Part shown: positions 28,319 to 62,783 of the stretch, one piece after another
Layout: every line of letters starts with the position of its first letter
How positions within the stretch are numbered: position 1 is the stretch's first letter
From: an uncultured Sphingomonadaceae bacterium
GTDB lineage: Bacteria > Pseudomonadota > Alphaproteobacteria > Sphingomonadales > Sphingomonadaceae
NCBI GenBank assembly: GCA_947493215.1
Contig: CANLQE010000003.1
Span: 1-64,000 of the forward strand
Reading direction: 5' to 3'
Length of the DNA stretch: 64,000 bases
Program-made: the position numbers and the translations under genes
Notes under the pieces: model-generated
Told to the model about the DNA's origin: nothing
Databases searched by the model: none
The model's input: the letters and a program-made list of their open reading frames with translations, nothing else

Positions 28319-28394
28319 GCCCGAATAGCTCAGTTGGTAGAGCAAGCGACTGAAAATCGCTGTGTCGGTGGTTCGAATCCGCCTTCGGGCACCA
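28319..28394 (+). tRNA. tRNA-Phe (GAA)
   Basis: Full cloverleaf: acceptor GCCCGAA pairs with TTCGGGC, D-arm GCTCAGTTGGTAGAGC, anticodon loop CTGAAAA with anticodon GAA, T-arm with GGTTCGAATCC, discriminator A and encoded CCA (28392-28394). The accessory DNA starts right behind it, and a degenerate copy of its 3' part lies at 28773, so it is the probable integration target. Confidence 0.97.
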
Positions 28395-29013: not shown

Positions 29014-30630
29014 CTATTTGAACCCAAGCATTGCGCGCTGGGCAGTCCAGCAAAGCGGTAGACTTCCGAAGCGCAATACCTTTCGACCAGTTAGATCAAC
29101 AGGCTGCGTTCCATCGGCAATGGCGGTAATGATATCCGGAGCCAAATAGCTGAGACGGGTAAGTTGTTGTAGGTGCCGTTTGCTATATTCGGATAGCATA
29201 GGCGAGGGGATGCCGCGGACCATTTGATCCTGTGCAGCGAAAGCATGGGCAATCAATCGAAGCAACACGGGATCGGGATCACGTTTTGTCAATCCTTCGC
29301 CTGCAGCGATAGCCAGCTTCAAATCTCGACCTTTGCTGACGAGCTTCGTCTTAATAGAAATTAAAACTGTTTGATCCTGTTCTGGAGGTGTAAATTCTAA
29401 ACTGATTGCGCTTTCTTCAATTGATACTCGCGTACCTAAACTGGCCAGCACTTGGCGTTGTTCGAGGATGTTCATTTCGAGCAATGAGCTTGCAATGGCA
29501 TTTCGTTTGCTGATTGCCTCCGATAGCACCGCAGCAGATCCCTGCTCATCGGATACTGTGGATTTGAGTTTCTTTGATACCGCGTTGATCACCAGCCGTT
29601 CTATCTCACCGGCAGGCATTCGCCATTTTTCGGATTGATCGCCAGGCATTTGTCGCGTGACATAGTATCGATAGCGCTTCGATCCCTTCTTCGCATGTGC
29701 TGGTGTCATTGGCTTGCCATCCGGATCGGTTATGATGCTTGTTAGCAGACTGGGGTTGCGGCTCTTCTTGCCAAGCGCGTTGTCACGCCTGTTCTCAGAG
29801 AAGCTCGATTGAACACGTTCGAACAGCTCATCCGAAATGATCGGCTGATGCACACCGTCATATATTTGGTCCTTATGGCGAACCTTGCCGAGATAGATTG
29901 GGTTCTGGAGAAGATGGGTCAAGGTACCGGTCTTGAAGTGTATGCCGCCGGCGATGCGTCCGGACTTGTAGACGCGGGTTCTGGTCCGGATGTCTTTTGC
30001 GGCCAGCTCATCAACCACCTGCGGGACCGATTTCAGCCGTGAATACTGTTCAAATACGTACCGCACGGTGTCGGCCTCAGTCTCATTGATCAGAAGCTGT
30101 CGCTCTTCGATATTATATCCAAAGGGAACACCACCGCCCATCCACATGCCCTTCTTTTTCGAAGCAGCAACTTTGTCCCGGATCCGTTCACCTGTAACTT
30201 CGCGTTCAAATTGGGCGAAGGACAGAAGGACGTTGAGTGTGAGCCGACCCATGCTGGTTGTGGTGTTAAACGATTGGGTGACGCTCACAAAGCTGGCTTC
30301 TGTCTCGTCCAAAATCTCGACGATCTTGGCAAAGTCGGCAAGACTGCGCGTCAGGCGATCCACCTTGTAAACGACAATGATATCGACCTTACCGACTTTG
30401 ACATCTTCGAGCAGTTGGACAAGGGCAGGGCGTTGCATATTGCCGCCAGACCACCCGCCATCGTCATAAAGTTCTGAAACTGCTTCCCAGCCTTCACTGG
30501 CTTGGCTCAATATATAGGCCGCGCAGGCTTCTCGCTGTGCATCCAAACTATTAAAGTCCTGCTCCAAGCCATCCTCTGTCGATTTACGGGTGTAGATCGC
30601 GCATCGCTTTCGTTTCGCGCGTTCAACCAT
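29014..30630 (-). CDS. serine recombinase, module 1
   Basis: 538-aa large serine recombinase. The N-terminal resolvase domain carries CAIYTRKS with catalytic Ser17, DAQREAC, VVYKVDRLTR and FNTTTSMGRL; a recombinase domain (PF07508) with YLGKVRHKDQIYDGVHQPI follows, then a zinc-ribbon-like region with few Cys. Start ATG 30630 is the counterpart of the start in module 2 and overlaps the DUF2924 stop by eight bases; an ATG at 30657 would add nine residues. The C-terminal third differs most from its paralogue at 61161. Presumably integrates or excises the surrounding element. Confidence 0.92.
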   Translation of the reverse strand: MVERAKRKRCAIYTRKSTEDGLEQDFNSLDAQREACAAYILSQASEGWEAVSELYDDGGWSGGNMQRPALVQLLEDVKVGKVDIIVVYKVDRLTRSLADFAKIVEILDETEASFVSVTQSFNTTTSMGRLTLNVLLSFAQFEREVTGERIRDKVAASKKKGMWMGGGVPFGYNIEERQLLINETEADTVRYVFEQYSRLKSVPQVVDELAAKDIRTRTRVYKSGRIAGGIHFKTGTLTHLLQNPIYLGKVRHKDQIYDGVHQPIISDELFERVQSSFSENRRDNALGKKSRNPSLLTSIITDPDGKPMTPAHAKKGSKRYRYYVTRQMPGDQSEKWRMPAGEIERLVINAVSKKLKSTVSDEQGSAAVLSEAISKRNAIASSLLEMNILEQRQVLASLGTRVSIEESAISLEFTPPEQDQTVLISIKTKLVSKGRDLKLAIAAGEGLTKRDPDPVLLRLIAHAFAAQDQMVRGIPSPMLSEYSKRHLQQLTRLSYLAPDIITAIADGTQPVDLTGRKVLRFGSLPLCWTAQRAMLGFK

Positions 30631-31081
30631 TCGCGGGCACCTTCGGTTCGTATCCACTTCGCTTTTTCAATCCGAAGAAACGAGGGCCGGACCAATGCGC
30701 GCCGGTTATCTCGCCAGCAATGTGACTTAGACTGGAGTAGTGGCGACCTTCAAACTCAAAGCCATCATCACAAACAAGCACATGGTAGCTTTTGCCATTC
30801 CATGATCTGACCAGCCGTGTTCCAGTCTTGAGCGAGATGGCGTGCATATGGCCGACCTTACCGGTTCGTTCCACTCGTTTGCGCAATCGTTCGATCTCGC
30901 GTTTGGTGGCACCGGGGAGGCTTCCATGCATACGTTCCTGCAGCCGGTTAGCGATCCCGCGCCGAAGCAAGTCGGGACAGATATCAGGCGCAGGCGACTT
31001 GAACGTATCGCGCCAAGCAGACCGCAACTGTGCAGGAGGCATGGTCATGAGTTCCGCTAACCTTATGTCGAGGACAGTCAT
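30623..31081 (-). CDS. DUF2924 domain protein, module 1
   Basis: 152-aa basic protein of the DUF2924 family: PPAQLRSAWRDTFKSPAPD, LLRRGIANRLQERMHG, then a small beta domain LKTGTRLVRSWNGKSYHVLV and SLSHIAGEITGAHWSGPRFF. The last part resembles DNA-binding beta folds (RAMA-like), with the conserved HWSGPRFFGL. It is coupled by 4- and 8-base overlaps to DUF3489 before it and recombinase behind it. This trio is a recurrent mobile module in alphaproteobacteria; DUF2924 may be a directionality or accessory factor, which is inference. Confidence 0.9.
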   Translation of the reverse strand: MTVLDIRLAELMTMPPAQLRSAWRDTFKSPAPDICPDLLRRGIANRLQERMHGSLPGATKREIERLRKRVERTGKVGHMHAISLKTGTRLVRSWNGKSYHVLVCDDGFEFEGRHYSSLSHIAGEITGAHWSGPRFFGLKKRSGYEPKVPANG

Positions 31082-31326
31082 GCTGCGCCTTTTCCACTTT
31101 TATCGCTTGGGCTGCGCGTGATGCGATAGACCGTTCCATCATCGCCGCGCTGCTCACGAGCTAGAACAAAGCCTTTCTTTCGCAGGCCTGTAAGGAAAGC
31201 GCGAACGCTGTGCTGTTTCCAGTTTGTTGCTTTGCATATCTCAGCAAGGGTTGCTCCCTTGGTTCGCGACAGCAGCGTAATGACTTTTGCAGATTTAGTC
31301 TGCGGTTCTAATTTGGTTGATGACAT
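31078..31326 (-). CDS. DUF3489 domain protein, module 1
   Basis: 82-aa winged-helix-like protein: SAKVITLLSRTKGATLAEI, then TNWKQHSVRAFLTGLRKKG as a helix-turn-helix, ending in a basic tail. Probably the regulator or DNA-binding factor of the module. Start ATG 31326 corresponds to 63473 in module 2; the frame is open much further but without conserved content. It overlaps DUF2924 by four bases. Confidence 0.88.
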   Translation of the reverse strand: MSSTKLEPQTKSAKVITLLSRTKGATLAEICKATNWKQHSVRAFLTGLRKKGFVLAREQRGDDGTVYRITRSPSDKSGKGAA

Positions 31327-31344
31327 TGAGGGTCTCCAGCTTGG

Positions 31345-31361
31345 CGCTGGACATTCCAGCG
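31345..31361. promoter_or_regulatory. 7-bp inverted repeat just upstream of DUF3489, module 1
   Basis: CGCTGGA-CAT-TCCAGCG, 19 bases before the DUF3489 start. Module 2 has the same hairpin, one base pair longer (63492-63510). Its conservation suggests an operator, perhaps autoregulatory. Confidence 0.5.
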
Positions 31362-31438
31362 TTTCCACTGACCCGAGCCGCTGATCGCTCAATGGAGCGG
31401 GCGGCTTGTCGCAAGTGATCTTTGCGACACCAACAGCA

Positions 31439-31521
31439 ATGCTCGAACAAACTCCGAAGTCCAGAGGTTTATGTGCATATTTGTAAAAGTTGCATATGGA
31501 CTTCCATGCCAAGTCGAGCAT
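31439..31521. promoter_or_regulatory. 83-bp nested dyad, module 1 (att-site or structured-RNA candidate)
   Basis: Outer arms ATGCTCGA (31439) and TCGAGCAT (31514), inner arms GAAGTCCA (31456) and TGGACTTC (31497). Nine bases separate outer from inner arm on both sides, and the inner loop is 33 bases. The same arms and the same 9/33/9 spacing recur at 63585-63667. It lies between DUF3489 and the divergent 72-aa gene. Confidence 0.6.
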
Positions 31522-31531
31522 GGGTTGGAAC

Positions 31532-31750
31532 ATGGCAGGTACAGACGATGAAATTGGTCCGATCAAGGTGCGAACTGGATTGTTTGCGCTTATCACTGCA
31601 CGATTAGAGGATGCCCATGAAATCGCTGTCAAGGGGCAGGCCACCAAGATCGGCAATCAAAATATTGGCGATTTGATTGTTGATCTGCGTTCGATGCTCG
31701 ATGAAATCAATATTCACATTGATGCGATCGATTTGATACAAGATCCCTAG
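31532..31750 (+). CDS. small conserved module protein, copy 1
   Basis: 72 aa from ATG 31532. It shares with the protein at 63678 the core TGLFALITARLEDAHE-AVKGQ and the end LDEI-----AI-LI, and looks like one long helix pair. An upstream in-frame ATG at 31490 lies inside the nested dyad. Function unknown; divergent from the recombinase operon. Conservation of sequence and place in both modules supports it as a real gene. Confidence 0.75.
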   Translation: MAGTDDEIGPIKVRTGLFALITARLEDAHEIAVKGQATKIGNQNIGDLIVDLRSMLDEINIHIDAIDLIQDP

Positions 31751-31963: not shown

Positions 31964-33727
31964 CTACGGCCGGCATATGATGTACCCAGTCGCGCCCATT
32001 TCCTTGGATGCGGCGAAGTAGTTTGTGAGTAACCAATATAGCTGGACAAAATGAGCAGACGGCGCATGCCCTTGAGCCGCGTCAGCAAACACCTGGGCCA
32101 CTCTTTCGCGGCTCAATGACGATGTTACGATGAAGACCCGCTTTGCTAGGTCTGGCGCTGTTCGCGTCATCGAGATTGCTTTCTCGACTTCTGCCCTCGG
32201 TCCACCTCTCATCATCTTGTGAATCGCAGTTTGGGCGTTGTTGTTGTTGTAAGTCTGATCCCAACCATCCAGTTTTCTGGTCATTGAACTCTCTGGAAGC
32301 GACATGTTACCCAAATTTTTTAACGCCTGTCCTACGGCTTCATGGAATGTTGATGCGCCGAGCGAATCCTCGCCATGCTTCGCGTGATAAAAACTAACTG
32401 TTGAAGGACTGGAAGAAGTAGAAAGACCGATAAAGTCAGCCCATTCATCCCCAAGGTCGTCGCAAATCAGAACATTGCAGTCGGCTGCTATATGATCGTT
32501 CACCGATCGAAAAACAGAACCTTCTGTGAACTCAGCTTGACCATTCTCAAATGTGCCTTTTTCGCTTGTCACATTTTCCAATGCTGGTTCAGCCTTCAAG
32601 TGGGCCAAGAAGCTCTCTCCGCCCCCAGCGAGAGCAGGCTCGCGAAACAGTGTGCCGCCAAGGTAAGCGAGCTCAAGTTCATTGAAAAGCACAGTGAAAG
32701 TATTCGTCTGGTTGATGTGCTTAACCAAGGATCGTTGCTCTGGATCCTCGCCAAGGGGGAAGCCAGTTCGTTCAATAGAGACACCTTCGAATGCAGGTAA
32801 GTCGAATTTCAATAATGCAATCCGTCGTTTGTTTATTCTGATTTGCCCAATATGCGTAAGACCATCCGGTGATTTGATGTGAATCGTCTCACCTACGTTC
32901 GTAAGAGGGAATGTCTCATCAATCTGGTTCAGAAGCGCTTTAGTGGCTTCGGAAGTTATCTCTAATCGTCCATTCTCAGAATCTCGCATCAGCCGATACT
33001 GGGCGTCTTCTTCCATAACCAACTCTGTAAGAGCGGGAACATCGATAGCAAGATAAGTCGGGCGCGTGCCTTTTGGCAACGAACCCAGGTCCTGCGGCCT
33101 CGCAAAATTTCGGATGAAAGCGGCAGACTCTCCATTGTCCGCCTCGAGCAGGTCAATTGTGGTCCGAGCCCAGTCTATGGCTTGTTCGTAATATGCACGA
33201 TCGGCCCGCATTGATATCCGACCAGTGCTGGGTGTCGCTGAGTAGTTTCCGTCATCTCGACGCACACGGTAGCCAAGTGGAGCAAACTTATTCGCGCTCG
33301 ATGTAGGAACCGAATTAGCTAGATCGTATGCCTCGAATGTTTTTCCGCGCACTGCGTGTTTTGAATTCGATGTGTTCTTAACCCGCAGCAGCTCAAATAC
33401 CGCCGACTGTTGTGCGATGGCTTGCTCAACTCGCTCATTCGAAATTCCGCTGAGATAAGTGTTCTTGAATTTTGAAGTAAGATCGACGCCCGCTTTCATG
33501 ACGGCGACATGATCGGAATGTTCAATGATGAGCAAAGCGCCAAACACTCTTTCGACTGCTCGTGCACCTGCATCAAGGAAACTGGGTTTGCGCTCGAATG
33601 AGAAGCAAATAGCCGAAAAGGTGCAGCCGTTATGCTGCTCCCTTACATGGCAAAACAGGTTTCTCGTTGGGTTTTGAGATTGCTTACGAACCGACCGAAA
33701 CAATTCATTTATTCCATTTGCCGACAT
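31964..33727 (-). CDS. large protein with nuclease-like C-terminal motif, unknown family
   Basis: About 587 aa from ATG 33727; the frame continues to an ATG at 33838, inside the divergent gene's leader. No membrane segment. The only recognisable piece is in the C-terminal third: CDDLGDEWADFIGL at about 422-435 followed by FYHAKHG at 446-452, an acidic cluster and Lys arranged as in PD-(D/E)xK nucleases, then an ASTFHEAVGQALKNLG helix. The N-terminal 400 residues are unassigned. Divergent from the DUF2235 gene and next to a nuclease-helicase pair, so a defence role is a fair guess. Confidence 0.6.
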   Translation of the reverse strand: MSANGINELFRSVRKQSQNPTRNLFCHVREQHNGCTFSAICFSFERKPSFLDAGARAVERVFGALLIIEHSDHVAVMKAGVDLTSKFKNTYLSGISNERVEQAIAQQSAVFELLRVKNTSNSKHAVRGKTFEAYDLANSVPTSSANKFAPLGYRVRRDDGNYSATPSTGRISMRADRAYYEQAIDWARTTIDLLEADNGESAAFIRNFARPQDLGSLPKGTRPTYLAIDVPALTELVMEEDAQYRLMRDSENGRLEITSEATKALLNQIDETFPLTNVGETIHIKSPDGLTHIGQIRINKRRIALLKFDLPAFEGVSIERTGFPLGEDPEQRSLVKHINQTNTFTVLFNELELAYLGGTLFREPALAGGGESFLAHLKAEPALENVTSEKGTFENGQAEFTEGSVFRSVNDHIAADCNVLICDDLGDEWADFIGLSTSSSPSTVSFYHAKHGEDSLGASTFHEAVGQALKNLGNMSLPESSMTRKLDGWDQTYNNNNAQTAIHKMMRGGPRAEVEKAISMTRTAPDLAKRVFIVTSSLSRERVAQVFADAAQGHAPSAHFVQLYWLLTNYFAASKEMGATGYIICRP

Positions 33728-33889
33728 CGCCCGACGGGGAGCGTAAAAAAATGCCGATCGGCCTAGATTGAGAAATTCGATCAATAGGATTTCCCAGGTG
33801 AGAGGTAATTTGTCCTTAAAGTCATGCCGACATTTCAAAGCTATGATAGAGAAGGTCTTTCTTGGACCTATTCATCATGGGAAGCAACA

Positions 33890-35059
33890 ATGCCAAAGAA
33901 TATTGTACTATTGCTTGATGGTACCTCAAATGAAATAAGTTCTGACCGAACCAACATCTTGCGCTTGTACGGAGTTCTCGAAAAAAGCGACCACCAGCTC
34001 GTATATTACGATCCAGGCGTTGGAACATTCGGAGCAGATGGCGCCTGGTCGCGGTTTTGGCGTAAAGCCAACGAAGTTTGGGGCCTGATGACTGGCTGGG
34101 GTCTCGATCATAATGTGAAGGAGGCCTATCGTTTTTTGGTCGAGAATTACGACAATGGGAAGCGGGCGGACGATCAAGACGTCCCGCGCGATCAAATCTA
34201 CATATTTGGCTTCAGCCGTGGTGCATACTCAGCGAGAGTTTTGGCCGGATTCATTCACGCAGTCGGCTTGATCGAAGCGCGAAACCTCAATCTGCTTTCC
34301 TACGCATATCAAGCGTACAAGCAGATTGGTCAAAACGCCGAAGAGGAGGCTTTCGAGGAAGTCCGTCTTTACGAGCGGATTCTTGGGAATGATCGTCCGC
34401 CCATAAGAATGCTTGGTCTATTCGATACCGTAGCGTCGGTAATTGAGAGCGGCAGGAAAGGGCCGAGGCTTAAGTCTCACGCCTTCACGAGCAGCAACAA
34501 GAGTGTTGAGTTTGTTTCGCACGCTATCGCAATAGACGAAAGGAGAACGATGTTTCGACCGATGCTCTGGCCTGATGGTGAGGAGTATTGGGGGAATCCA
34601 TTCAAAAAGATGAATGCTAAGCCGCAGGATGTTGAAGAGGTTTGGTTTGCTGGTGTTCATGGCGATGTGGGTGGTGGGTATCCTGAGAAAGAAAGTGGCC
34701 TCTGCAAAGTGCCTCTCGTCTGGATGATCGACCGATCAAAGGCCGCTGGCTTAAAGTTCCGGACACAAAGCGTGAACTCGTTGGTTCACGGGAAACGAAA
34801 AAACTCAAAATACATTGCGCCTGATCCGCTTGGAAAGCCACATAATACTATGACGTTTTGGTGGTCCCTGATGGAGTTTATTCCGCGTAAGAAGCCGAAA
34901 AATTCATCACGACCTTCGATATTTGGAATTTCCATACCGTTCTTTGAGCGTCGCTTCATGCCTCCAAGGTCCAAAGTCCACGTTTCAGTAATTCAACGTC
35001 AGGAGGATCTTGGAGAGTGGAGCAAAAACATTCCCGACGATTTCGAAAGCGCTTGTTAG
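33890..35059 (+). CDS. DUF2235 hydrolase-fold protein
   Basis: About 389 aa with the DUF2235 (T6SS phospholipase Tle1-like) alpha/beta hydrolase domain: start KNIVLLLDGTSNE, nucleophile elbow GFSRGAYSARV with Ser109, GLFDTVASV, and the HGDVGGGYPE motif giving the catalytic Asp/His region. No signal peptide and no VgrG/Hcp or immunity-like neighbour, so a T6SS effector is unlikely; stand-alone forms are of unknown function and may be lipases acting in the cell. ATG 33890 is favoured as it precedes the domain directly; ATG 33824 would add 22 residues. Confidence 0.8.
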   Translation: MPKNIVLLLDGTSNEISSDRTNILRLYGVLEKSDHQLVYYDPGVGTFGADGAWSRFWRKANEVWGLMTGWGLDHNVKEAYRFLVENYDNGKRADDQDVPRDQIYIFGFSRGAYSARVLAGFIHAVGLIEARNLNLLSYAYQAYKQIGQNAEEEAFEEVRLYERILGNDRPPIRMLGLFDTVASVIESGRKGPRLKSHAFTSSNKSVEFVSHAIAIDERRTMFRPMLWPDGEEYWGNPFKKMNAKPQDVEEVWFAGVHGDVGGGYPEKESGLCKVPLVWMIDRSKAAGLKFRTQSVNSLVHGKRKNSKYIAPDPLGKPHNTMTFWWSLMEFIPRKKPKNSSRPSIFGISIPFFERRFMPPRSKVHVSVIQRQEDLGEWSKNIPDDFESAC

Positions 35060-35315: not shown

Positions 35316-37037
35316 ATGCAGGTAGGGAATGTAGAAATCGTGGCATCAGCAGGAAAGTCATTGTTAAAAAACTCAAATCGGCCAATACTTCGCGCCAACG
35401 CCAGTCAGGAGAATGGCTACGTGCTTAATGATTTGAGTAATATAGCTCCATCGTCAGATGCTGGTGGCATTGCTGCCCGCAAAGGGTTTCGAATTCAGGA
35501 TCATGTAGCCGCTCGCCTAGTGTTAGAGATGATCCATGATTCCTCAATCTTGCAAGTAGAATGCGAAACTGGTGATGACGTTATCCTGCGCCGAATTGAT
35601 GCTGGCAAAACGATCATCGAATATATTCAAGTTAAAACGACTGAGTCGGACACAAAATGGTCCATCAAGGAACTGACAAAACGCGTCGGCACCAAAGCAG
35701 GCAGTTCGGTTTGCGAGAAATCTCTCCTGTGCGACAAACATGGGGAGATCGCATGGTTTCGTTTTGTCTCCACGCGCGCGGTGTCGGGAAAGTTACAGCC
35801 ATTCCGACGCGCACGCAACAAACGCACGAATTCTAACGGTCTTGCAGGTCTCATCACCAGTTTCTCGATTAGACACAAAACAACGAAGTCGGTGTCCGGT
35901 CGGACACTGTCCGATTGGGCAGCCAACATGCTTTGGGAGGTTGAGGGCGAAGAGGAGGCCTTAATCTCGCGTAACATCAACGCTCTACTTAAATTATCAA
36001 GCGGCCAAGGCGTTAATCCGAGCTACGAAGTAATGGATCAAGTCTATCGAGAGCTTGCCGACAAAGTTCGCACCATGGGCGACAAGCCGTCGGCGGATGC
36101 CGAAGAAAAGGTCTGGACACGCGGAGACTGTTTGAAGTGGTGGGCCGCTCAGGTCGAAGCTATGCGGAAGGCGGCTAGTGCAACTGTCAAAGTTTATCAG
36201 GTTTCCAACGTCCCGCAGTTCTTCTCAGAGATTTGCTCAATGGATGAAGAGATGATCAGGCGAGCCTTGTACGCGTATGATGTCGAGTTCGATGGCGAGG
36301 TTTGGCGAAAAGATGAGCTGATTGATCACCTGCTAGATTGGCTCCCTGAAATCGCGCTTCCACCGCAAACCCTTGCGAACTTTAATCACCTGGCCGCAAG
36401 GAGACTGCCCAGCGAGGCGTTGAAAGAGTTAGAGCGCCGCGGCCCTACTGACATTCCGCAGTTGATCGCCACCCTCATGCTGCACGCGATTCTGCGTCAT
36501 CATTTTGGTGCCGAGCCGATAGCCTGCCGCATCTTTTTCTTGGTGAGTGGACAAATGAGGGCAAATAGCGCTCACATCGTTCAGTTGCCTGACAGCGAAG
36601 AAATCTGGCTCGGTCGGTCTCGTCTGGTCACTGCCTCCTCTCATAAATCTGCAACTGCTGAGGTCCTTGCTGAATTGCGGACCGCTTTGGCGAGGGACGT
36701 CCTGAAGGAGGAGCGAGACATCATCATTCAGCTTCGGGAGCCAAGGCACCTCCGAGACGACAAATTAGACGTGATACTGTCGAACACCGGAAAGACATCT
36801 GATTTGTTAAAGGTCATGCATCTGCCTTTTCTCGTGGCTTATGACAGCGCAACGCTCGGTGCTGGTTTTGATGCGGCCTATCTAGAAAAGCTCAAGACAG
36901 AAGTTGAGAAGGAATACGAGAGAATCAAGGCCCTGCTGGATGAAGAGTTGGAGACTGTTCAGATCTCACTGTTCCTCGTCCCGGTCGAATGTGCCGACAC
37001 ACTTGCAAAGGAATTTGAGGCTAAGTTGAGGAAATGA
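35316..37037 (+). CDS. DUF4297 (Cap4-like) nuclease domain protein
   Basis: About 573 aa if ATG 35316 is used; GTG 35340 is possible and neither has a good ribosome site. An N-terminal DUF4297-type nuclease (residues about 48-230) shows GGIAARKGFRIQDHVAARL, ECETGDDVILRRID and EYIQVKTTE, the acidic residues and Q-x-K of Cap4-family PD-(D/E)xK enzymes. The C-terminal 340 residues are helical and unassigned, ending in a coiled stretch. Its stop overlaps the helicase start as ATGA, so the two act together; comparison with HamA of Hachiman is natural, although HamA is shorter (DUF1837). Confidence 0.75.
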   Translation: MQVGNVEIVASAGKSLLKNSNRPILRANASQENGYVLNDLSNIAPSSDAGGIAARKGFRIQDHVAARLVLEMIHDSSILQVECETGDDVILRRIDAGKTIIEYIQVKTTESDTKWSIKELTKRVGTKAGSSVCEKSLLCDKHGEIAWFRFVSTRAVSGKLQPFRRARNKRTNSNGLAGLITSFSIRHKTTKSVSGRTLSDWAANMLWEVEGEEEALISRNINALLKLSSGQGVNPSYEVMDQVYRELADKVRTMGDKPSADAEEKVWTRGDCLKWWAAQVEAMRKAASATVKVYQVSNVPQFFSEICSMDEEMIRRALYAYDVEFDGEVWRKDELIDHLLDWLPEIALPPQTLANFNHLAARRLPSEALKELERRGPTDIPQLIATLMLHAILRHHFGAEPIACRIFFLVSGQMRANSAHIVQLPDSEEIWLGRSRLVTASSHKSATAEVLAELRTALARDVLKEERDIIIQLREPRHLRDDKLDVILSNTGKTSDLLKVMHLPFLVAYDSATLGAGFDAAYLEKLKTEVEKEYERIKALLDEELETVQISLFLVPVECADTLAKEFEAKLRK

Positions 37038-39223
37038 CGATGGAGCTTGATAACATTCGCCAGTGCATAGCCAATCCGGACAAAATGATCGAATGTCGCT
37101 TCCCGATTTTTCGCGAAGTCACGCGTCTAGCCAACAGAGAACAGACAAGCGCGATTGCTCGTGAGCTGATCATTCGCATCCTTCCCCACAAAGCGCTTCT
37201 CACGGATGGATATGACGATTTGCTCGATGCTCTGGTGCGAGAGGTGGGCTTATTCCCCTATGCCGATCAGGGAAAGAACGTCACTATCGAGGAGCAAATG
37301 CTCTTCGAAGCTCACAGAGTGCAGGGCATAGGGCAAGAGAGGTTCTTTCATAGCCTACAGCTTGCTGTCTTTCAGGAGATCGTGAATGGACGGAATGTAG
37401 TTTTGAGCGCGCCAACTAGCGTTGGCAAAAGCCTAGTGATCGACGCTGTGCTCGCAACGCGGCTGCATAAGAAGGCCGTCATCATTGTCCCTACGATCGC
37501 GCTGATTGATGAGACCAGGCGACGCATTACGGCTACTTTGGACGGCACTCACGACATTATCACTCACCCGAGTCAGGATCGTCTCGGCGACGGCAGACCA
37601 ACCGTCTACATTCTCACTCAAGAAAGAGCCCTTGGACGAAATGACCTCAGCGACGCTGACTTTTTTGTCATAGACGAATTCTACAAGTTAGATCTTCGTG
37701 ATGCGCGAGACGAAAGGGCAATCGATCTCAATATCTGCTTCCATAGATTGGCCCAGAACGGCGCTCAATTTTACCTTATTGGACCCAATATCGCGAATGT
37801 CAGAGGCCTTGCGGCCTCATATAAACATGTATTCATGCCGTCGGATTTTTCCACCGTTGCGCTAGATATCGAATATTTCAATCTAAGACAGAAAGGCGAG
37901 GAGCGAAATGCTAAGCTCGTCGAACTTTGCGCTTCGCTCAACAGTCCGACGCTTGTTTATTGCCAGTCGCCTCGCAGCGCGCGGGATGCAGCGCGAAATA
38001 TATACGAGAAATCCGAGCTTCCCATCAGCGAGGCAACGAAAGACGCCGTGGATTGGCTGGAGCAGTACTTTCCGACTGAATGGGAGGTTATTCAGGCTCT
38101 GAAGCGTGGCATCGGCATCCATCATGGAAATGTTCCAAGAGCAATCCAGCAATTCATGGTTAGAGCTTTTGAGGAAGGCCGAATCAAGATTCTCGTATGC
38201 ACCTCGACAATTATTGAGGGCGTAAACACTGTCGCCGAGAACGTCATAATTTTCGATCGTAGGACGAACACAACTACGATCGACGATTTCACGTTCAGAA
38301 ATATCGCGGGTAGAGCAGGGCGCATGAATCGCTACTTCATCGGCAAAGTATTCGTCTTGGAGGAAGCTGTAGCTGAAGGGGATCACGTCGTCGATTTGCC
38401 AGGGGGGCAGCAGGATGAAACAACGCCACTTTCTCTTATACTCGATCTCCCTCCCGGCAGCTTAACTTCGCTTTCACAGGAGCGGATCACGACCGTCATC
38501 GAGGAGTCCAAGCTAAGCGAGGCGACGATCCGGCAAAATCGTTACATTCCAATCGAAGATCAGAACGCGCTCTTTGAAGCGATTTCAGCACTTTACGATA
38601 GCCATCCTGAGTATCTCCAGTGGAAGGGGATTCCTCGGTCAGAACAACTGCTTGCGGTCTGTAACCTCATTTATGATTATCTCGACCGCGGCACCTCGCT
38701 TCGCAGGCATAAAATTTTTGCCGGGGACCAGCTTCAGGCTGTGCTTACCAGCTTGATGGCCGCTGACGACTTCAAAGACTTCATTGCTCAGCGAGTTGAG
38801 AGTCGATGGAAGGATGACACGATTAGCGACGCCGTCGAACAAGCGTTGTCGTTTCTGCGGAACTATGTTGGATACAAGTTTGGGCGTCAGTTGACGGCGT
38901 TAAGCCGCATTCAAGCTGACGTTCTTTCCAGATACAAAAAAGCCGTTCCCGGCGACTATTCCATGTTTGCTGCCCATGCGGACTCATTGTTCATGCCGGC
39001 CGGGCTCTTCGCGTTGGACGAATATGGAGTTCCCTCAGAAATTGCCCGCAAAATTATGATTGATAGCGGCACGATCGAGAGCGTCGATCAGGGGCTTCGC
39101 ATCCTCGCCGGGATCGATCTTGGCCAGCTAAAGCTCGAACCTTTTGAAAGGGAAATCCTCGAAAGCGTTCGCCAATCGCTGCCGCTTCGCGCGTTCACGA
39201 AGGTGGAGGACGAGGGAATTTAA
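37034..39223 (+). CDS. Ski2-like DEAD/DEAH-box helicase, HamB-like
   Basis: 729-aa superfamily 2 helicase. Motif I SAPTSVGKS (125-133), Ia PTIALIDE, II VIDEFY (213-217, DEFY in place of DEAD/DEAH), IV TLVYCQS, V CTSTIIEGVN (389-398) and VI NIAGRAGR (423-430) are all present, and a 300-residue helical tail follows. The set is typical of Ski2/Hel308-like and Hachiman HamB helicases. It is coupled to the Cap4-like nuclease, with a short DCL protein behind. Probably an ATP-driven DNA sensor that licenses the nuclease, by analogy with Hachiman. Confidence 0.85.
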   Translation: MTMELDNIRQCIANPDKMIECRFPIFREVTRLANREQTSAIARELIIRILPHKALLTDGYDDLLDALVREVGLFPYADQGKNVTIEEQMLFEAHRVQGIGQERFFHSLQLAVFQEIVNGRNVVLSAPTSVGKSLVIDAVLATRLHKKAVIIVPTIALIDETRRRITATLDGTHDIITHPSQDRLGDGRPTVYILTQERALGRNDLSDADFFVIDEFYKLDLRDARDERAIDLNICFHRLAQNGAQFYLIGPNIANVRGLAASYKHVFMPSDFSTVALDIEYFNLRQKGEERNAKLVELCASLNSPTLVYCQSPRSARDAARNIYEKSELPISEATKDAVDWLEQYFPTEWEVIQALKRGIGIHHGNVPRAIQQFMVRAFEEGRIKILVCTSTIIEGVNTVAENVIIFDRRTNTTTIDDFTFRNIAGRAGRMNRYFIGKVFVLEEAVAEGDHVVDLPGGQQDETTPLSLILDLPPGSLTSLSQERITTVIEESKLSEATIRQNRYIPIEDQNALFEAISALYDSHPEYLQWKGIPRSEQLLAVCNLIYDYLDRGTSLRRHKIFAGDQLQAVLTSLMAADDFKDFIAQRVESRWKDDTISDAVEQALSFLRNYVGYKFGRQLTALSRIQADVLSRYKKAVPGDYSMFAAHADSLFMPAGLFALDEYGVPSEIARKIMIDSGTIESVDQGLRILAGIDLGQLKLEPFEREILESVRQSLPLRAFTKVEDEGI

Positions 39224-39262
39224 TATATCGGAGAATTCACAACATTTATAATGGGAGGCAAC

Positions 39263-39577
39263 GTGGCTAAGAAGATCGACCTATCTACCGGCAAATCATT
39301 CAGAAATATTGCTGAAGCAAAGCGGCACTTCTCCGCGTTGCTCAAAGTTACTCCTCTGAAAGCAGAAATTTCGGGGGCAGACCTCGAAGACGTTCGTGCG
39401 GTTTATCAAGCATATTGCAGCGTCACAGATTGGGAATTGCCGTCCATGCCCGTAGGGTTCTTTCCTATCCATGAGCGCGGCAAGGAATATACTACCCGCT
39501 GTTTCGGTGTGAGGTTCGAGGATGGCTCAATCGGTCGCTTTTCTATCCAAACAGCATTGAGCAAGATCGCCAAGTGA
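39263..39577 (+). CDS. DCL family (DUF3223) small protein
   Basis: About 104 aa matching the DCL/DUF3223 pattern: FRNIAEAKRHFSALLKVTP, an acidic helix, FFPIHERGKEYTTRCFGV and FEDGSIGRFSIQTAL. DCL-domain proteins occur alone or with HNH nucleases in bacteria and as DCL in plastids; the role is unclear. GTG 39263 is chosen because GGGAGG lies five bases before it; ATG 39251 would place the ribosome site inside the gene. It starts 40 bases after the helicase stop and probably belongs to the same operon. Confidence 0.72.
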   Translation: MAKKIDLSTGKSFRNIAEAKRHFSALLKVTPLKAEISGADLEDVRAVYQAYCSVTDWELPSMPVGFFPIHERGKEYTTRCFGVRFEDGSIGRFSIQTALSKIAK

Positions 39578-40111
39578 GCTTGTGAATGTACCGGTTTATT
39601 ACCGGCAGTTTTTGCTTCAAAGCTGGCAATCGGGACTGTCCAAGAATTCAGTCAGTCAATTTTAAGCAATCTAAGGTCTGCTTTCGAACAAGCGACAACA
39701 GAGCTAAAATGTCCTGTGTTGAGGCGCGTTTCAGACCAGCGGCAATTGGGCCGATTGCCGACCTGCAGCTTTTCGTCGTTAGATCGCTTAAAGCGGACAT
39801 TCTGCTAACGACCCACAAGGATCAATCATTCGGGAGTTTAGACCTCCCAACAATACCAAACCCCGCTTGGGCACAAGGTGCTGCATCACGGTATCTTCAG
39901 GCGCTATGACAATTTCTGCCGCCAGCGGCAGTTCAGCCGATAGTTATGACATGACCTTGCACGGTGATGATAATCGGCTTGGTTGCGCGACTGTAGAGAC
40001 CGAAGGGGTCGACCCGGTCCTCTGATCGCATCACATACCCTTTCGAAAAAGCGCTTCTAAATAGGGCAAGTCTAATCCCGCTATCATTTTAAACCTCATT
40101 CACTATTGTCG
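39578..40111. other. noncoding stretch with repeat relics
   Basis: No credible gene. It holds pieces of the dispersed intergenic dyad: taaggtctgctttcgaac near 39674 and ttaaagcggacattctgc near 39787, with about 100 bases between. The rest (39830-40111) shows nothing recognisable. Confidence 0.5.
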
Positions 40112-41098
40112 TCATCGGTTTTTCCTTCCGATGGTTGAGTCAACTAACTGACTGATGCGAAGTATATTGGTCTCGGCGTCTGAGATAGTTCGATTTAGGA
40201 TTGCTCGTGCAGGCTCTTTGCAACACACTAAGTCCGCTGCCTCACCGACGATCACTGCAGCGATATCCGGATCGTCAAATTCCTGTGCAGTTTCAAAACG
40301 AATTTGCTCCACCGCAAGATTCTCTGCGAGCCCGTTCACATTTCCGCTCCATTTCCGCGTGAAAGAATTACGCATGGTGCGAAGGTTCCAGCCAGACGGC
40401 CACTCGAGTCCGCGTGCGATATCGAAAACGGAACTGCGCTCGGTATTGTCTCCGTTGCAACCAATGGCGGCCTGCTTGACGTTATCGCTAGCGAGCGACT
40501 CGTCACTGGCAAAGAACGCGGTTCCGCACAAAGCACCGGCAGCTCCGAGCGCGAGCGCGGCAGCTAGACCGCGACCGTCAGCGACCCCGCCTGCGGCAAT
40601 AACTGGTATCCCACCCGCAAGATCGACAACTGCGGGAACGAATGGCAGCGTCGAGCGAGTGCCGCCGTGACCGCCGGCCTCGGTACCCTGTGCCACTACA
40701 GCATCGACTCCAGCGTCAATCGCTTCGCGCGCCTGATCCAGCGTCTGCACCTGTACAATGAGCTTCGTTTGTCCACGCCGAATGCGGGGTAGAAAGGGGC
40801 GAAAATCTCCAAAAGACAGCATTAAAACGGCGGGATCACGGTCGAGAGCAATATCGAGTAAATGAGGCTGGCGGACCAGAGACCAGGTAATAAAGCCGAC
40901 ACCGATCCGGGCATCGCGCGCTGCATTCAACTCGCGTTCGAGCCAGTCGGCATCGCCATAACCTCCACCGATTAGCCCGATACCGCCTGCTTGGCTCACC
41001 GCTGCCGCGAGCGCTCCTCCGCTGACGCCTGCCATCGGCGCAAGGAGCAATGGATGTTTGATCTTGAGTAGATCGCAAAGGGGAGTGTGAATTGGCAT
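40112..41098 (-). CDS. nitronate monooxygenase family protein
   Basis: About 328-aa FMN TIM barrel of the NMO/2-nitropropane dioxygenase family. FMN-site features are HPLLLAPMAGVSGG, VVAQGTEAGGHGG with the catalytic-type His, and VIAAGGVADGRG followed by GAAGALCGTAF. Such enzymes oxidise alkyl nitronates such as propionate-3-nitronate. ATG 41098 is used; a TTG at 41107 overlaps the tautomerase stop as TTGA and could be the true coupled start. Last gene of a run GST, NTF2-like, tautomerase, NMO. Confidence 0.88.
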   Translation of the reverse strand: MPIHTPLCDLLKIKHPLLLAPMAGVSGGALAAAVSQAGGIGLIGGGYGDADWLERELNAARDARIGVGFITWSLVRQPHLLDIALDRDPAVLMLSFGDFRPFLPRIRRGQTKLIVQVQTLDQAREAIDAGVDAVVAQGTEAGGHGGTRSTLPFVPAVVDLAGGIPVIAAGGVADGRGLAAALALGAAGALCGTAFFASDESLASDNVKQAAIGCNGDNTERSSVFDIARGLEWPSGWNLRTMRNSFTRKWSGNVNGLAENLAVEQIRFETAQEFDDPDIAAVIVGEAADLVCCKEPARAILNRTISDAETNILRISQLVDSTIGRKNR

Positions 41099-41103
41099 TT
41101 CAG

Positions 41104-41310
41104 TCAACTCTGCTGCGATTTTCTATACTCTTCACAAGGAAGACCACCTATTCCCCAATTTTCCATCTCAACTTCATCAATTACAACGAAAGTCGTAGCC
41201 GGGTTTTTGTCGAGAACCTGAGCGAGCAAGTCGGTAACGCCGCTAATAAGCTCTATTTTCTGATCAGCCGTAACACCTTCTCGCGTCACCTTGATATTTA
41301 CATAGGGCAT
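41104..41310 (-). CDS. 4-oxalocrotonate tautomerase family protein
   Basis: 68-aa protein beginning MPYVNIKVTREG, so Pro1 is available as the general base after Met removal, and with ADQKIELISGVTDLL and VVIDEVEMENWGIGG as in 4-OT. The Arg11-like residue is in TREG. Substrate unknown. It sits between the NTF2-like and NMO genes with close spacing. Confidence 0.9.
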   Translation of the reverse strand: MPYVNIKVTREGVTADQKIELISGVTDLLAQVLDKNPATTFVVIDEVEMENWGIGGLPCEEYRKSQQS

Positions 41311-41321
41311 GATGATTTCTC

Positions 41322-41696
41322 CTAAAGTTCACGTTCAGTTATCTGGAATATCTTGGCCATTATGCGCCAGACGCCATCGGTTCGCACCAGTGTTAGAAAG
41401 TCGGTAAAGTCGCGCGAACCTATCGAACAACGAACCCGGGCAAAGGCGGTGTTCGCACCCGCAAACTCTATGGCATCGACCAAGTCACGCCGGGGCTCAT
41501 CTCGCGATGCAGGAGACTCGCGAACCGCCACGACGGGGAAATATTCGTCCATCGTGCGATAAAGCATCGGCGTTTCATCCGCAGTCGCATAGATTGCCTT
41601 TGGATGGAACGCTGCTGCCAGCTTGGTGGTGTCGGCGTGATAGAGCCCATCAAAATAGGTTTCCAGGACGCTGCCTATTGCTGCGAAATCGTTCAA
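41322..41696 (-). CDS. NTF2-like (putative lumazine-binding) protein
   Basis: 124 aa with the SnoaL/NTF2 cone fold pattern: YFDGLYHADTTKLAAAFHPKA at the start, then FTDFLTLVRTDGVWRIMAKIF at the end, as in the putative lumazine-binding family (PF12893). Function unknown; often accompanies oxidoreductase genes. Its start overlaps the GST stop by four bases. Confidence 0.82.
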   Translation of the reverse strand: MNDFAAIGSVLETYFDGLYHADTTKLAAAFHPKAIYATADETPMLYRTMDEYFPVVAVRESPASRDEPRRDLVDAIEFAGANTAFARVRCSIGSRDFTDFLTLVRTDGVWRIMAKIFQITEREL

Positions 41697-42322: not shown

Positions 42323-42389
42323 GGGTCTTACCTTCGGTTGGATGGGAGAGGAAGAGCAGACATGGGCTTCTTGATAACCATTGACAACT

Positions 42390-58591: not shown

Positions 58592-59038
58592 TTAATATTT
58601 TCGGGTTCTCGAGCGCATCCTGTTCAAAAGATCCTCGTGATCTTTAGGTGGGCCATTATGCTCATCCTGGCCAAACCCCTTCTCATACTCATTGAGTGTC
58701 TTGATAGCATCCCAGTTTTCGGCTTGATGGCTATGTAAAAGATCGTGTCTTAACTGCGCAACAGCAAGCATCATGCGGGGATTACCTTCAAGCGCTACTT
58801 GGATCATTTTCCAATAGAGTGCCAATATGGCTGGAAGTTTCCTAACTTTCCCTTGGATCTTTATATCAATGGTTTCTTCCATCAAATTCAGGATATCATA
58901 ACGAAGCTGCCGTTCCGTAAAAGCCCTTTCTTTTTTCCGCGGCCGTCCCTTTGGGTTGCCGGATGCACCCGTTTTGAATTGACCATTTGCAGTGCGCTTT
59001 TTGGATTTTTCGTCGCCCCAGGCGCTATTGTCGCTCAT
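58592..59038 (-). CDS. DUF5681 domain protein
   Basis: 148 aa; N-terminal NGQFKTGASGNPKGRPRKK is the DUF5681 signature, a basic AT-hook-like start, followed by a helical body. Family members are found next to phage-like or mobile methyltransferases and terminases; some are small-terminase-like in context, which is inference. Its start overlaps the methyltransferase stop by four bases. Confidence 0.85.
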   Translation of the reverse strand: MSDNSAWGDEKSKKRTANGQFKTGASGNPKGRPRKKERAFTERQLRYDILNLMEETIDIKIQGKVRKLPAILALYWKMIQVALEGNPRMMLAVAQLRHDLLHSHQAENWDAIKTLNEYEKGFGQDEHNGPPKDHEDLLNRMRSRTRKY

Positions 59039-60390
59039 GTTCCATGCTCCTTCTTTACTGTTCCCCAGACAGAACGGAAGGCAGTCGTCCGTTCAAAAGT
59101 TTGCCCTGTGGCTTCAAGTATTGATTGCTTGCCGGTCATGGCTTCCCAGCGCTGGACGATGACATCGCAATAGATTGGATCGAGTTCCATCATGCGCGCA
59201 CTTCTTCCGGTACGCTCCGCAGCGACCAGTGTGGTTCCGGATCCGCCAAAACTGTCTAGAACAATGCCTCCGCGTTGCGTGACATCCATGATGGCATCGG
59301 CAATCATCGTGACCGGTTTGACGGTGGGGTGCAATTTGAGCTTATCCATCCGGTCTCGCCCAAAGCTATTGATCCCGGCATATTCCCATACGTTGGTTCG
59401 GTATCGCCCCTTGTCCCCCAGACCAAAGTTGTTGATATGTGAAGCACTGCCTTTTTTCCAAACCAATACCATTTCATGCTGGCTGCGATAAAAGCTTCCC
59501 ATGCCGGCATTGGTCTTTTTCCAGACACAGATGTTTTTGAGTTCATCAAAAACTATATGACCTGCGGAGAGAAGTTCTCCCAAATGACGCCAGTCCATAC
59601 ACACAAATGCAATAGCGCCGTCTCGGCAGTTGTTCGCAGCCACATATAAGCTGTCTTCAAGGAACTGTGTGAATTGGCCCGATGACATTTCACCGGATGC
59701 TTCCAGAAATTCCCGATGCCGGATCTCGCCAAGACCACTGACGTGACCATCGATCTTCACATTATACGGTGGGTCGGTGAATACCGCATCCGCAACATCG
59801 CCTTGCATCAGGCTTGCCATATCAGAATGGGATTTCGCATCACCGCATAGCAACCGATGCCGTCCAAGCATCCAGACGTCACCTGTGACAGTTACGACCT
59901 TGAGAGGGTCTATTTCACAAGGTGGACAATCATCATCTGTATCAACCGTTGATTCAGGATCTGCCATGTCGGCATCCTTGATCGACATATCGACCTCACC
60001 AATTTCAAAACCGGTGATTGAAACGTCAAATTCGGTTCCGGCGATCTCAGCCAGCTCAATTGACAATATCTCTCTGTCCCACTCCGCATTGAGCGCCAAT
60101 TTGTTGTCGGCAATGAGATATGCTTTCTTTTCCGTTGCGGTCAGATTGTTGAGCCGCAAACATGGTACTGTCTGCATGCCAATCTTGCGAGCCGCCGCCA
60201 GGCGCCCATGGCCAGCAAGAATGGTATTCCGGTCATCGATAAGCAATGGATTGGTAAAACCGAATGTAATCAGTGATTTTTCAATTTGTACAATCTGTTT
60301 ATTGGAATGTGTCCGGGCATTTCGGGGCCATGGTTTGAGATCACTCAACGCAATCTGTTCGACCTTATCTGAATGAATTTTTGACAACAT
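59035..60390 (-). CDS. ParB-domain DNA methyltransferase (N6-A/N4-C)
   Basis: About 451 aa. A ParB/Spo0J-like N-terminus (IALSDLKPWPRNARTHSN, TILAGHGRLAAARKIG) is fused to an amino-methyltransferase: DPPY at 206-209 and, in the C-terminal part, DSFGGSGTTLVAAERTGR for SAM binding, the order of beta-class enzymes such as CcrM. Such orphan methylases occur in phages and mobile elements and modify DNA at an unknown site. Start ATG 60390; repeats of ACTACG lie upstream. Confidence 0.92.
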   Translation of the reverse strand: MLSKIHSDKVEQIALSDLKPWPRNARTHSNKQIVQIEKSLITFGFTNPLLIDDRNTILAGHGRLAAARKIGMQTVPCLRLNNLTATEKKAYLIADNKLALNAEWDREILSIELAEIAGTEFDVSITGFEIGEVDMSIKDADMADPESTVDTDDDCPPCEIDPLKVVTVTGDVWMLGRHRLLCGDAKSHSDMASLMQGDVADAVFTDPPYNVKIDGHVSGLGEIRHREFLEASGEMSSGQFTQFLEDSLYVAANNCRDGAIAFVCMDWRHLGELLSAGHIVFDELKNICVWKKTNAGMGSFYRSQHEMVLVWKKGSASHINNFGLGDKGRYRTNVWEYAGINSFGRDRMDKLKLHPTVKPVTMIADAIMDVTQRGGIVLDSFGGSGTTLVAAERTGRSARMMELDPIYCDVIVQRWEAMTGKQSILEATGQTFERTTAFRSVWGTVKKEHGT

Positions 60391-60440
60391 AACTTTGATC
60401 CCAGAGCGAAGAATTACACCCAAGAAGCATACAAGGTGCA

Positions 60441-60594
60441 ACTACGTCAATGGTAGATAAGTTATTGATATAAAATACTTTACTACGATACTTTCTACGT
60501 CAAATACTACGTTAAACTATTGCTCTTCTTGCTATGAAAACTTCGATAGGGATGCGAGCAAAAATGCGATTGTCAACGCGTAAAACTACGACAA
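60441..60594. promoter_or_regulatory. cluster of ACTACG repeats upstream of the methyltransferase
   Basis: Five copies of a short motif: ACTACGTCAA (60441), ACTACGATAC (60482), TCTACGTCAA (60494), ACTACGTTAA (60506) and ACTACGACAA (60585), all in the same direction, the middle three spaced 12 bases apart. This looks like a cooperative regulator-binding array. Confidence 0.5.
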
Positions 60595-60952
60595 TGCGTT
60601 CGGTTTGTGCTTCAATATACACGTCGAATTTGAGTTTCGGATTACGATGAACTTTGTCCTGAAATGTTTAGGTCAAACGGACGTTCGCGACTGGAAAGTG
60701 AGGCATGGGTCAAGTCCATTGATGGGCTTCACCGGCAGCCCCTGTTTCGTTCCTGTTATTCCGATTTAACGCCCTGATATTGTGAATTGTTTTCCTGTTG
60801 TTAGATAACAGGCCAATGTCTTAAAACGGCCCAATAACTGGGAATGACCGATAGAACGGGGGAGGGTATTGCCAGAAATTCAGCTTTTTAGCTCATTTTC
60901 AAGGAATATCAGGACTTTTCATCAGAGACCGGTTCTCCGCAGACTGCGTCGC

Positions 60953-60983
60953 GCACCACTTTTTTCCTAAATTTTCAGTGTCT
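60953..60983. repeat. shared flank of module 2
   Basis: GCACCACTTTTTTCCTAA and the following TTTTCAGTGTCTC match 28799-28830 with few changes. It is the outer boundary of sequence shared by the two recombinase modules. Confidence 0.6.
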
Positions 60984-61059
60984 CGCACTCGGTAAACAGT
61001 ATGCGATTTTTATCCCTATTTATCTGTCGGTTAGCGGAGGATGGTGCGTAGACCTTGTC

Positions 61060-61140
61060 GCCAGAGACCATTTGTCGTCCGCGATATGGCGACAAAATAG
61101 CCAAGTGTCTCGATAGCCCAAATACTGGAGTCCAGATGCA
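61060..61140. repeat. 80-bp element-end repeat, copy 3
   Basis: GCCAGAGACCATTTGTCG to CCAGATGCA, with the perfect inverted pair TTTGTCG/CGACAAA. It ends 20 bases before the stop of recombinase 2, as copy 2 does for recombinase 1. Confidence 0.7.
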
Positions 61141-61160
61141 CTAGTGGATTTAGGGAGGTT

Positions 61161-62783
61161 TTAGGCTGAAGCGAACCCAAACATCTTGCGCTGACCGGCC
61201 CAGTCTAACGGGATTTTGTTGATGCGCATGATCTTGCGTCCGGTGAGATCCGGTGGTTGTGTTCCATCGACAATTGCAGAGATAATATCAGGAGCCATGA
61301 AGCTTAATCTCACTAGCTGCTGCAAATGGCGCTGCTTATAGTGATTAACCATCGCTGAGGATATTCCTCGAACCAGAAGATCTTGGGCTGCAAAAGCATG
61401 AGCAATCAGTCTGAGCAACACTGGGTCGGGATCGCGTTTGATAGGTCCGTCATCCGGTGCAACTGCTAATCTCACCTCTGATCCTCGACTAACTAGTTTA
61501 GCTTCAATCGAAAGTTTGATTGGTTGATTCTGATTGGGAGGCGTAAACTGGATTTCGATTGTTCTGCTGTTTATGGAAACACTAGTTTTATAACCGAGTA
61601 ACAATGCTCGTTGATCACTGATAGACATTGCGGGCAGGTGGATTGAAGTTTGGCGATCCAGATCGATCTGAACTTCTAATTCTCGCGCATCATCAGTTTC
61701 TGCGCAGCTAAATGTCGCCAGTTGCTTAGCAATCGCATCGATAACCAGTAGCTCGATCTCGCCTGCGGGCATTCTCCATTTGGGAGATTTGTCTCCAGGT
61801 GATGCCCGTGAGACATAGTAGCGATAGCGCTTCGGCCCCTTCATGGCATGTGCTGGCGTCATCGGCTTGCCATCAGGGTCGCTAATCATACCCGTTAGCA
61901 AACTGGGGTTGCGACTTTTCTTGCCCAGCGCATTGTTGCGCCGGTTTTCGGTGAATATGGATTGAGCACGCTCAAAAAGCTCATCGGCAATGATCGATTG
62001 ATGCGCTCCATCATAGATTTTGTCTTTATGCTTTACTTTCCCGATATAAACAGGGTTCTGGAGAAGGTGGGTCAAAGTACCAGTCTTGAAATGGATGCCC
62101 CCTGCGACCCGACCAGTCTTACAAACGCGGGTTCTGGTCCGGATATCTTTTGCGGCTAGTTCATCCACCAACTGCGGAACCGATTTGAGCTCAGCATAAC
62201 GTTCAAAAACTAGTCGAACTGTTTCAGCTTCAGCGTCATTTACACGGAGCCGTCGCTCTTCGACATCATATCCGTAAGGAACACCGCCACCCATCCACAT
62301 GCCCTTCTTCTTGGATGCTGCAACTTTGTCGCGGATGCGTTCGCCGGTTACCTCGCGCTCAAATTGGGCGAAGGAGAGAAGCACGTTAAGTGTCAGCCTT
62401 CCCATACTGGTCGTGGTGTTGAAGGATTGGGTGACGCTGACGAAGCTCGCCTCGCTTTCATCCAGTATTTCTACAATTTTGGCGAAGTCTGCCAGTGCAC
62501 GAGTGAGCCGGTCTACTTTATAGACAACTATGATATCGACTTTGCCTGCTTTCACATCATTAAGTAGCTGCACAAGGGCAGGCCGCTGCATATTGCCGCC
62601 AGACCAGCCGCCATCGTCATAAAGCTCTGGAACTGCTTCCCAGCCTTCACTCGCTTGGCTCAATATATAGGCGGCGCAAGCTTCTCTCTGGGCATCGAGA
62701 CTGTTGAAGTCTTGTTCCAGGCCATCTTCGGTCGATTTACGAGTGTAAATGGCACATCGCTTGCGTTTGGCGCGCTCAACCAT
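61161..62783 (-). CDS. serine recombinase, module 2
   Basis: 540-aa paralogue of the recombinase at 29014, with the same resolvase domain (IYTRKS, catalytic Ser17), recombinase domain and GGVPYGYD hinge. The first 370 residues are almost the same in both; the C-terminal third is strongly diverged (insert around FSCAETDDARELEVQ). Start ATG 62783 overlaps the DUF2924 stop by eight bases. Probably the integrase of the element that carries the DUF5681 and methyltransferase genes behind it. Confidence 0.93.
   Translation of the reverse strand: MVERAKRKRCAIYTRKSTEDGLEQDFNSLDAQREACAAYILSQASEGWEAVPELYDDGGWSGGNMQRPALVQLLNDVKAGKVDIIVVYKVDRLTRALADFAKIVEILDESEASFVSVTQSFNTTTSMGRLTLNVLLSFAQFEREVTGERIRDKVAASKKKGMWMGGGVPYGYDVEERRLRVNDAEAETVRLVFERYAELKSVPQLVDELAAKDIRTRTRVCKTGRVAGGIHFKTGTLTHLLQNPVYIGKVKHKDKIYDGAHQSIIADELFERAQSIFTENRRNNALGKKSRNPSLLTGMISDPDGKPMTPAHAMKGPKRYRYYVSRASPGDKSPKWRMPAGEIELLVIDAIAKQLATFSCAETDDARELEVQIDLDRQTSIHLPAMSISDQRALLLGYKTSVSINSRTIEIQFTPPNQNQPIKLSIEAKLVSRGSEVRLAVAPDDGPIKRDPDPVLLRLIAHAFAAQDLLVRGISSAMVNHYKQRHLQQLVRLSFMAPDIISAIVDGTQPPDLTGRKIMRINKIPLDWAGQRKMFGFASA

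Follow-up and report, generated by a model that had tools for sequence, protein, structure and literature searches.

Organization and Identity of the Operon

The locus considered here raises the question of whether an operon that joins a nuclease gene to a helicase gene and a third, small gene encodes a new kind of defence system or a copy of one already described. It lies in the first 64,000 nucleotides of contig CANLQE010000003.1 (assembly GCA_947493215.1) from an uncultured Sphingomonadaceae bacterium; this whole stretch is called the window below. A sequence-only reading of this DNA had proposed a Hachiman-like system and had suggested that it may be a distinct subtype or an undescribed system.

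Table 1. Features of the operon and its flanks, in window positions.
Feature	Coordinates	Strand	Remarks
tRNA-Phe	28319..28394		adjoins the recombinase region
large serine recombinase with DUF2924 and DUF3489 genes	29014..31656		
624-aa protein	31964..33838	−	PADLOC candidate defence family PDC-S71, 2e-122
Tle1-like (DUF2235) phospholipase-type protein	33824..35059		just upstream of the operon; Pfam 2.9e-76
abpA (AbpA-type HamA)	35316..37037	+	N-terminal Cap4 (DUF4297-like) and degenerate HamA/DUF1837; start codon uncertain
hamB/abpB, Ski2-like SF2 helicase	37034..39223	+	729 aa; ATGA overlap with abpA
hamC, DUF3223/DCL-like small protein	39251..39577	+	108 aa from ATG 39251
second serine recombinase and DNA methylase (N6_N4_Mtase) protein	59035..62783		weak ParB_N match in the methylase protein

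As shown in Table 1, the end of abpA and the start of hamB confirm the ATGA overlap by which nuclease and helicase had been said to be coupled. A likely alternative start of hamC is the GTG at 39263, which is preceded by GGGAGG and gives 104 aa. Full-length profile and PDB matches bear out the proposed Hachiman-like defence and its nuclease of Cap4 type. In AbpA, PF14130 matches the Cap4 domain at residues 50–252 (4.5e-28) and PF08878 matches a HamA/DUF1837 domain at residues 333–557 (3.9e-29), and the protein is matched by the PADLOC models HamA1 (PDLC00173, 2.7e-205) and HamA2 (PDLC00198, 8.7e-187) and by the PDB chain 8zue_A (3.1e-41 across residues 45–572). The Q-x-K motif of the nuclease is present as Q105-V-K107 and aligns with its counterpart in AbpA. 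The helicase was likewise correctly named, as it matches HamB2 of PADLOC (PDLC00201, 6e-239) and 8zue_B (2.5e-114 across residues 29–674), with Hel308 and polymerase theta helicases also matched. The C-terminal part of the nuclease protein, previously left unassigned, is the HamA domain, and the N-terminal Cap4 domain had been mistaken for the HamA equivalent.

On these sequence matches, the window operon is a copy of the described AbpAB system, which is also filed as Hachiman type II. With the C-terminal region recognised as HamA and the three-gene layout already published, the novelty of the system is rejected: a fused nuclease beside a helicase corresponds to AbpAB, HamAB together with a DUF3223 gene has been described as Hachiman type II, and both proteins are clearly assigned. 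An undescribed system is thus ruled out by the profile, PDB and literature matches.

The window shares with AbpAB of E. coli (PMC10732053; structure 8zue) the Cap4-HamA fusion, the 729-aa Ski2-like helicase, the Q-x-K motif and the degenerate HamA site, and differs from it by the added hamC. A Citrobacter AbpAB (L011) is 25% (AbpA) and 33% (AbpB) identical to the window proteins. Hachiman type II was defined in PMC8565338 as HamAB with HamC (DUF3223), with 379 systems, and an alphaproteobacterial type II locus from Sphingopyxis witflariensis protected E. coli against phage. The window is likened to that locus by gene set, irrespective of the short or fused form of HamA; the PADLOC HamA2 models cover both short (about 280–315 positions) and fused-length (542) forms. 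The adjacent HamA, HamB and HamC genes of the window make up this type II gene set as judged by matches to PADLOC HMMs. The window HamC lies on a different branch from the tested HamCs that accompany HamAB.

Loss of the HamA Active Site and Proposed Mechanism

The HamA active site was compared in an alignment of 25 HamA domains, consisting of that of the window, five other Cap4-fused ones (L018, L005, L006, L011, L012), five unfused ones picked from hits (L004, L040, L042, L043, L054), and those of 14 further genomes from a 398-genome phylum sample, in which 16 genomes were positive including the window's and that of L040. The catalytic quartet E/D/E/K is complete in all 17 unfused HamAs and in none of the eight fused ones, seven of which are fused to Cap4 and one (L078) to a trypsin-like domain; lone quartet residues remain in L005, L012 and L079. 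In the window the quartet reads T/N/R/R, with all four active-site positions changed, and the intact D-GExK nuclease site of a canonical Hachiman type I HamA is absent from the window HamA in this alignment. The AF2 model of AbpA reached a pLDDT of 40 at an alignment depth of three sequences, so that the case for a dead HamA site rests on the alignment, by which the HamA domain of AbpA is catalytically degenerate.

It could be supposed that the HamA domain is still a nuclease, which would make AbpA a double nuclease, as PF08878 recognises the domain well over its cut-off (102.6 vs 25 bits). However, all four active-site positions are altered, and PMC12278908 (Tuck et al.) calls the HamA domain of AbpA catalytically inactive. 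We regard a double nuclease as extremely improbable, and an active HamA domain is ruled out by the alignment.

The rule that a fused HamA has lost its catalytic quartet is already published. In PMC12278908, which also covers Hachiman sensing, AbpAB is proposed as a Hachiman variant and the reason for the inactive HamA domain is called enigmatic; in PMC12799240, motif loss is reported in virtually all protease-HamA fusions, and the dead HamA acts through oligomerisation (HamMAB). As in the window, the trypsin-HamA fusion of HamMAB, to which L078 corresponds, has an effector fused to a dead HamA and run by HamB; unlike the Cap4 of the window, this effector, a protease, works by switching on a separate nuclease. 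From this oligomerisation in the protease fusions, AbpA is read as an effector joined to a regulated tether, and we infer that the same step may operate in the Cap4 form.

The corresponding experiments on AbpAB are reported in PMC10732053, which presents AbpA as a Cap4 domain joined to HamA and places D45, Q58 and K60 at the Cap4 site. Defence was lost in the Q58A, K60A and helicase mutants, and growth arrest by AbpAB was triggered by T4 Gp32 bound to ssDNA or by DNA damage. The authors' own view, given as speculation, is that an identity of about 16% speaks against AbpAB being a direct counterpart of Hachiman.

Given its degenerate HamA domain, AbpA should have Cap4 as its effector, and HamB is expected to sense the DNA state. 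HamB/AbpB would act as a sensor helicase that surveys DNA and may be triggered by single-stranded DNA, phage SSB, replication or repair intermediates, or damaged replication structures. The dead HamA domain of AbpA would dock on HamB and, on release, gather AbpA copies, whereupon the Cap4 domain, with an acidic residue and Q105-x-K107, would cut DNA and cell growth would stop. HamC would be an add-on, probably a modulator and most likely a small nucleic-acid- or complex-binding one, that tunes when a DNA-state-sensing system fires. The window operon fits a known modular rule, in which HamB is the sensor, HamA is reduced to an inactive regulatory tether and another effector is added.

Taken jointly, it is very probable that the locus is a complete AbpAB-type Hachiman operon with HamC, and that it serves as an anti-phage abortive-infection system with a HamB sensor, a dead HamA tether, a Cap4 nuclease and a HamC modulator. 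The present analysis itself shows the domains and residues, the order of the genes, their relatives, the lost HamA active site and the patchy presence of HamC. Papers on relatives provide the anti-phage activity, the need for the Q/K and helicase residues, the type of trigger and, for the protease fusion, the oligomerisation of dead HamA; by analogy, the activity, residue requirements, triggers and oligomerisation would extend to the window copy, and the role given to HamC is likewise conditional.

A Rare, Travelling Cassette

A second copy of the three-gene cassette was found in an alphaproteobacterial MAG (L018/L024, JAHJHR010000007.1), with identities of 79, 90 and 76% to the window proteins. 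The DNA similarity between the two is confined to 35372–39584 of the window, and the flanks are without match. One other genome of the genus has no match to 39600–44400 of the window, so the downstream sequence differs there too. The system is rare: among 149 Sphingomonadaceae genomes it is carried by the window's own genome only, and a full-length match was obtained in 2 of 385 genomes of the class-level sample, one again being the window's own.

Identity and Distribution of HamC

The protein of the third gene, DUF3223/DCL-like, matches HamC2 of PADLOC (6e-11) and has the fold of 2K0M over its whole chain by fold comparison; its score against DUF3223 (PF11523) is 13.5 bits, under the Pfam gathering cut-off of 21; the 104-aa HamC of L024 reaches 19.6 bits. 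A phmmer search of HamC against the PDB returned a single match, with an E-value of 0.35. The structure 2K0M is called HamC in PMC8565338, which gives the function of HamC as unknown. In PMC9705548, DUF3223 in a Tetrahymena La protein aids the folding of defective pre-tRNAs, which is a weak hint that the fold touches nucleic acid. The window HamC had no match in phage records and one 49-residue match in viral contigs.

Co-occurrence of the three genes was borne out by their linkage in L018, but HamC is present in only two of the seven Cap4-fused AbpAB loci (window, L018). It was not found in L005, L006, L011, L012 and L079, where a very divergent HamC could be missed. In the 398-genome phylum sample, HamC lies beside the system in 3 of the 16 HamA genomes (the window's, G175, and G505, in which the helicase reads as two shorter ORFs); in G823, the HamA gene and a HamC-like stretch are on different contigs.

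The same HamC family also occurs behind IetAS, whose core, an AAA ATPase and a subtilase, is unrelated to HamAB. A scan of 84,980 genomes with the four HamC rows of alignment A2 gave 14 loci, namely one AbpAB, 12 IetAS (in L033 only the end of IetS is visible, and in L036 hamC is split) and one at a contig edge; as two of the four rows came from IetAS loci, 12 of 14 overstates the IetAS share. The less biased alignment A1, with three of nine rows from IetAS loci, found HamC in five genomes of the 398-genome sample, with AbpAB in one, HamAB in one, an SMC ATPase in one, no recognised partner in two (G791, G823) and IetAS in none; five is a lower bound because G505 was missed and was recovered later by a broader profile. 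In the 385-genome sample, PADLOC PDLC00204 found three HamC genomes (AbpAB 2, HamAB 1, IetAS 0). On plasmids, HamC-like matches occurred in 23 distinct records, and the 12 opened comprised four with IetAS, two with HamAB and six without a recognised partner. Counted in reverse, hamC was present in two of six opened plasmid IetAS loci (28 IetS records matched), with one hamC broken.

The partner genes match PADLOC IetA and IetS at 2.6e-156 and 1.1e-298 in the R. jaguaris pair and at 7.1e-81 and 7.2e-43 in the Agrobacterium pair. The HamCs of three such loci (L007, L028, L010) fall in PADLOC HamC2 (6.9e-9, 2.3e-8 and 1e-12). Among the IetAS loci with hamC (L007, L010, L025–L035), HamC is 46–52% identical to that of the window in L025–L035 and 28% in L010. 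In ten loci with unbroken hamC and whole ietS (L025–L032, L034, L035), hamC follows ietS by 12–57 bases in the same strand and order, counted to an assumed hamC start, which in L025 and L035 lacks a start codon. In L033, where the contig ends within ietS, the spacing is 122. IetS is 84–99% identical to that of R. jaguaris, across several families. In the window itself, no IetA or IetS was found by PADLOC among the eight proteins from 29–39.6 kb, or in a tblastn search of the whole window with four IetA/IetS queries. The linkage of HamC to IetAS was not found in searches of an open-licence literature library; subscription papers, supplements or bioRxiv may report it.

Near the HamC loci, three further observations were made. 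A 239-aa HamC2 protein (PADLOC 6e-75) lies directly behind an SMC-type ATPase (LmuB-like match, 3.6e-25), near a phage-type integrase (L039:9745–12921). Small genes for WGR-domain proteins are found no more than about 7 kb away from Hachiman or IetAS loci that carry HamC (L042:6520–6774, L043:6934–7185, L008:13921–14160). Caspase-family proteases, identified by annotation and for L010 by Pfam, are divergently upstream of IetAS-HamC in Agrobacterium (L010:265–1419) and Komagataeibacter (L044:277–1437).

Origin and Possible Role of HamC

In a first HamC tree of 27 rows, a starred branch (98/95) separates two HamC groups. The same split appears at 92/89, under the star level, in a second tree of 24 rows, from which four long rows (L009, L017, L038, L041) were dropped and to which L071 was added; neither tree included the broken or contig-edge HamCs L008, L036, L037 and L044. 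In the 24-row tree, the window HamC falls among orphans and IetAS HamCs of the R. jaguaris type, and the HamCs of HamAB loci group with those of the SMC-linked locus and of the Agrobacterium IetAS. Since the split is under the star level there, reliance is placed on AU tests, which rejected a single clade of AbpAB and HamAB HamCs (p 1.8e-5) and a single clade of IetAS HamCs (p 0.026); the trees were built on 103 alignment columns with some long rows, and the AU groups were chosen after the first tree was seen. From the split and the AU rejection, "Hachiman type II" appears to bring together two or more recruitments of HamC. Typing Hachiman by the presence of HamC therefore joins loci in which HamC has a separate history.

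These results bear on whether HamC could be an obligatory, Hachiman-specific third subunit, with the three-gene form as a coherent subtype of single origin. The PADLOC subtype was indeed named on the association of HamAB with HamC (PMC8565338), and hamC is close behind hamB in the window, L018, L042 and L043. The counts given above for Cap4-fused loci and HamA genomes, the rejection of one clade for AbpAB and HamAB HamCs and the presence of the same family behind IetAS all stand against such a subunit, which we consider improbable. HamC as a Hachiman signature is weakened by the IetAS linkage and the AU test.

It may also be asked whether HamC, as a passenger or plasmid-maintenance gene without relation to defence, lies beside defence genes on mobile DNA by chance. 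Half of the opened plasmid records have a HamC-like gene without a recognised defence partner, and three IetAS loci with intact-looking iet genes have a broken or shortened hamC next to a mobile element: IS21 in L008 and a DDE transposase in L036, both with the break near residue 29, and in L044 an IS110 transposase that follows a truncated copy. A chance neighbour is nevertheless rather unlikely, because hamC keeps its strand and order and lies 12–57 bases behind ietS in the ten loci from several families, and because the L018 cassette retains a HamC with 76% identity although the flanks there have no DNA match to the window. Broken hamC beside intact-looking iet genes fits an accessory better than a core part, and HamC looks more like an accessory open to exchange than like a signature of Hachiman.

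We propose tentatively, at somewhat less than even likelihood, that HamC is a small transferable accessory found with defence systems that have no other relation to one another, namely AbpAB, classical HamAB, two or more sorts of IetAS and perhaps an SMC ATPase locus resembling Lamassu. According to PMC10732053, Lamassu, ietAS and AbpAB, together with AbiQ, DarTG and Borvo, are triggered by phage replication proteins, so that on this reading HamC may be a shared adaptor that reads phage replication intermediates or damps the response to them. The repeated linkage of HamC to two mechanistically different systems is a more useful outcome than the operon itself.

Flanks of the Operon

The gene of the 624-aa protein is divergent from the DUF2235-like gene, and its product has no Pfam match over the cut-off. 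In L079 (42% identity) and L042 (26–33%), too, relatives of the DUF2235 protein are encoded close to genes of Hachiman type. The recombinase region next to tRNA-Phe is possibly the edge of an integrated island, and the second serine recombinase lies on the other side of the operon.
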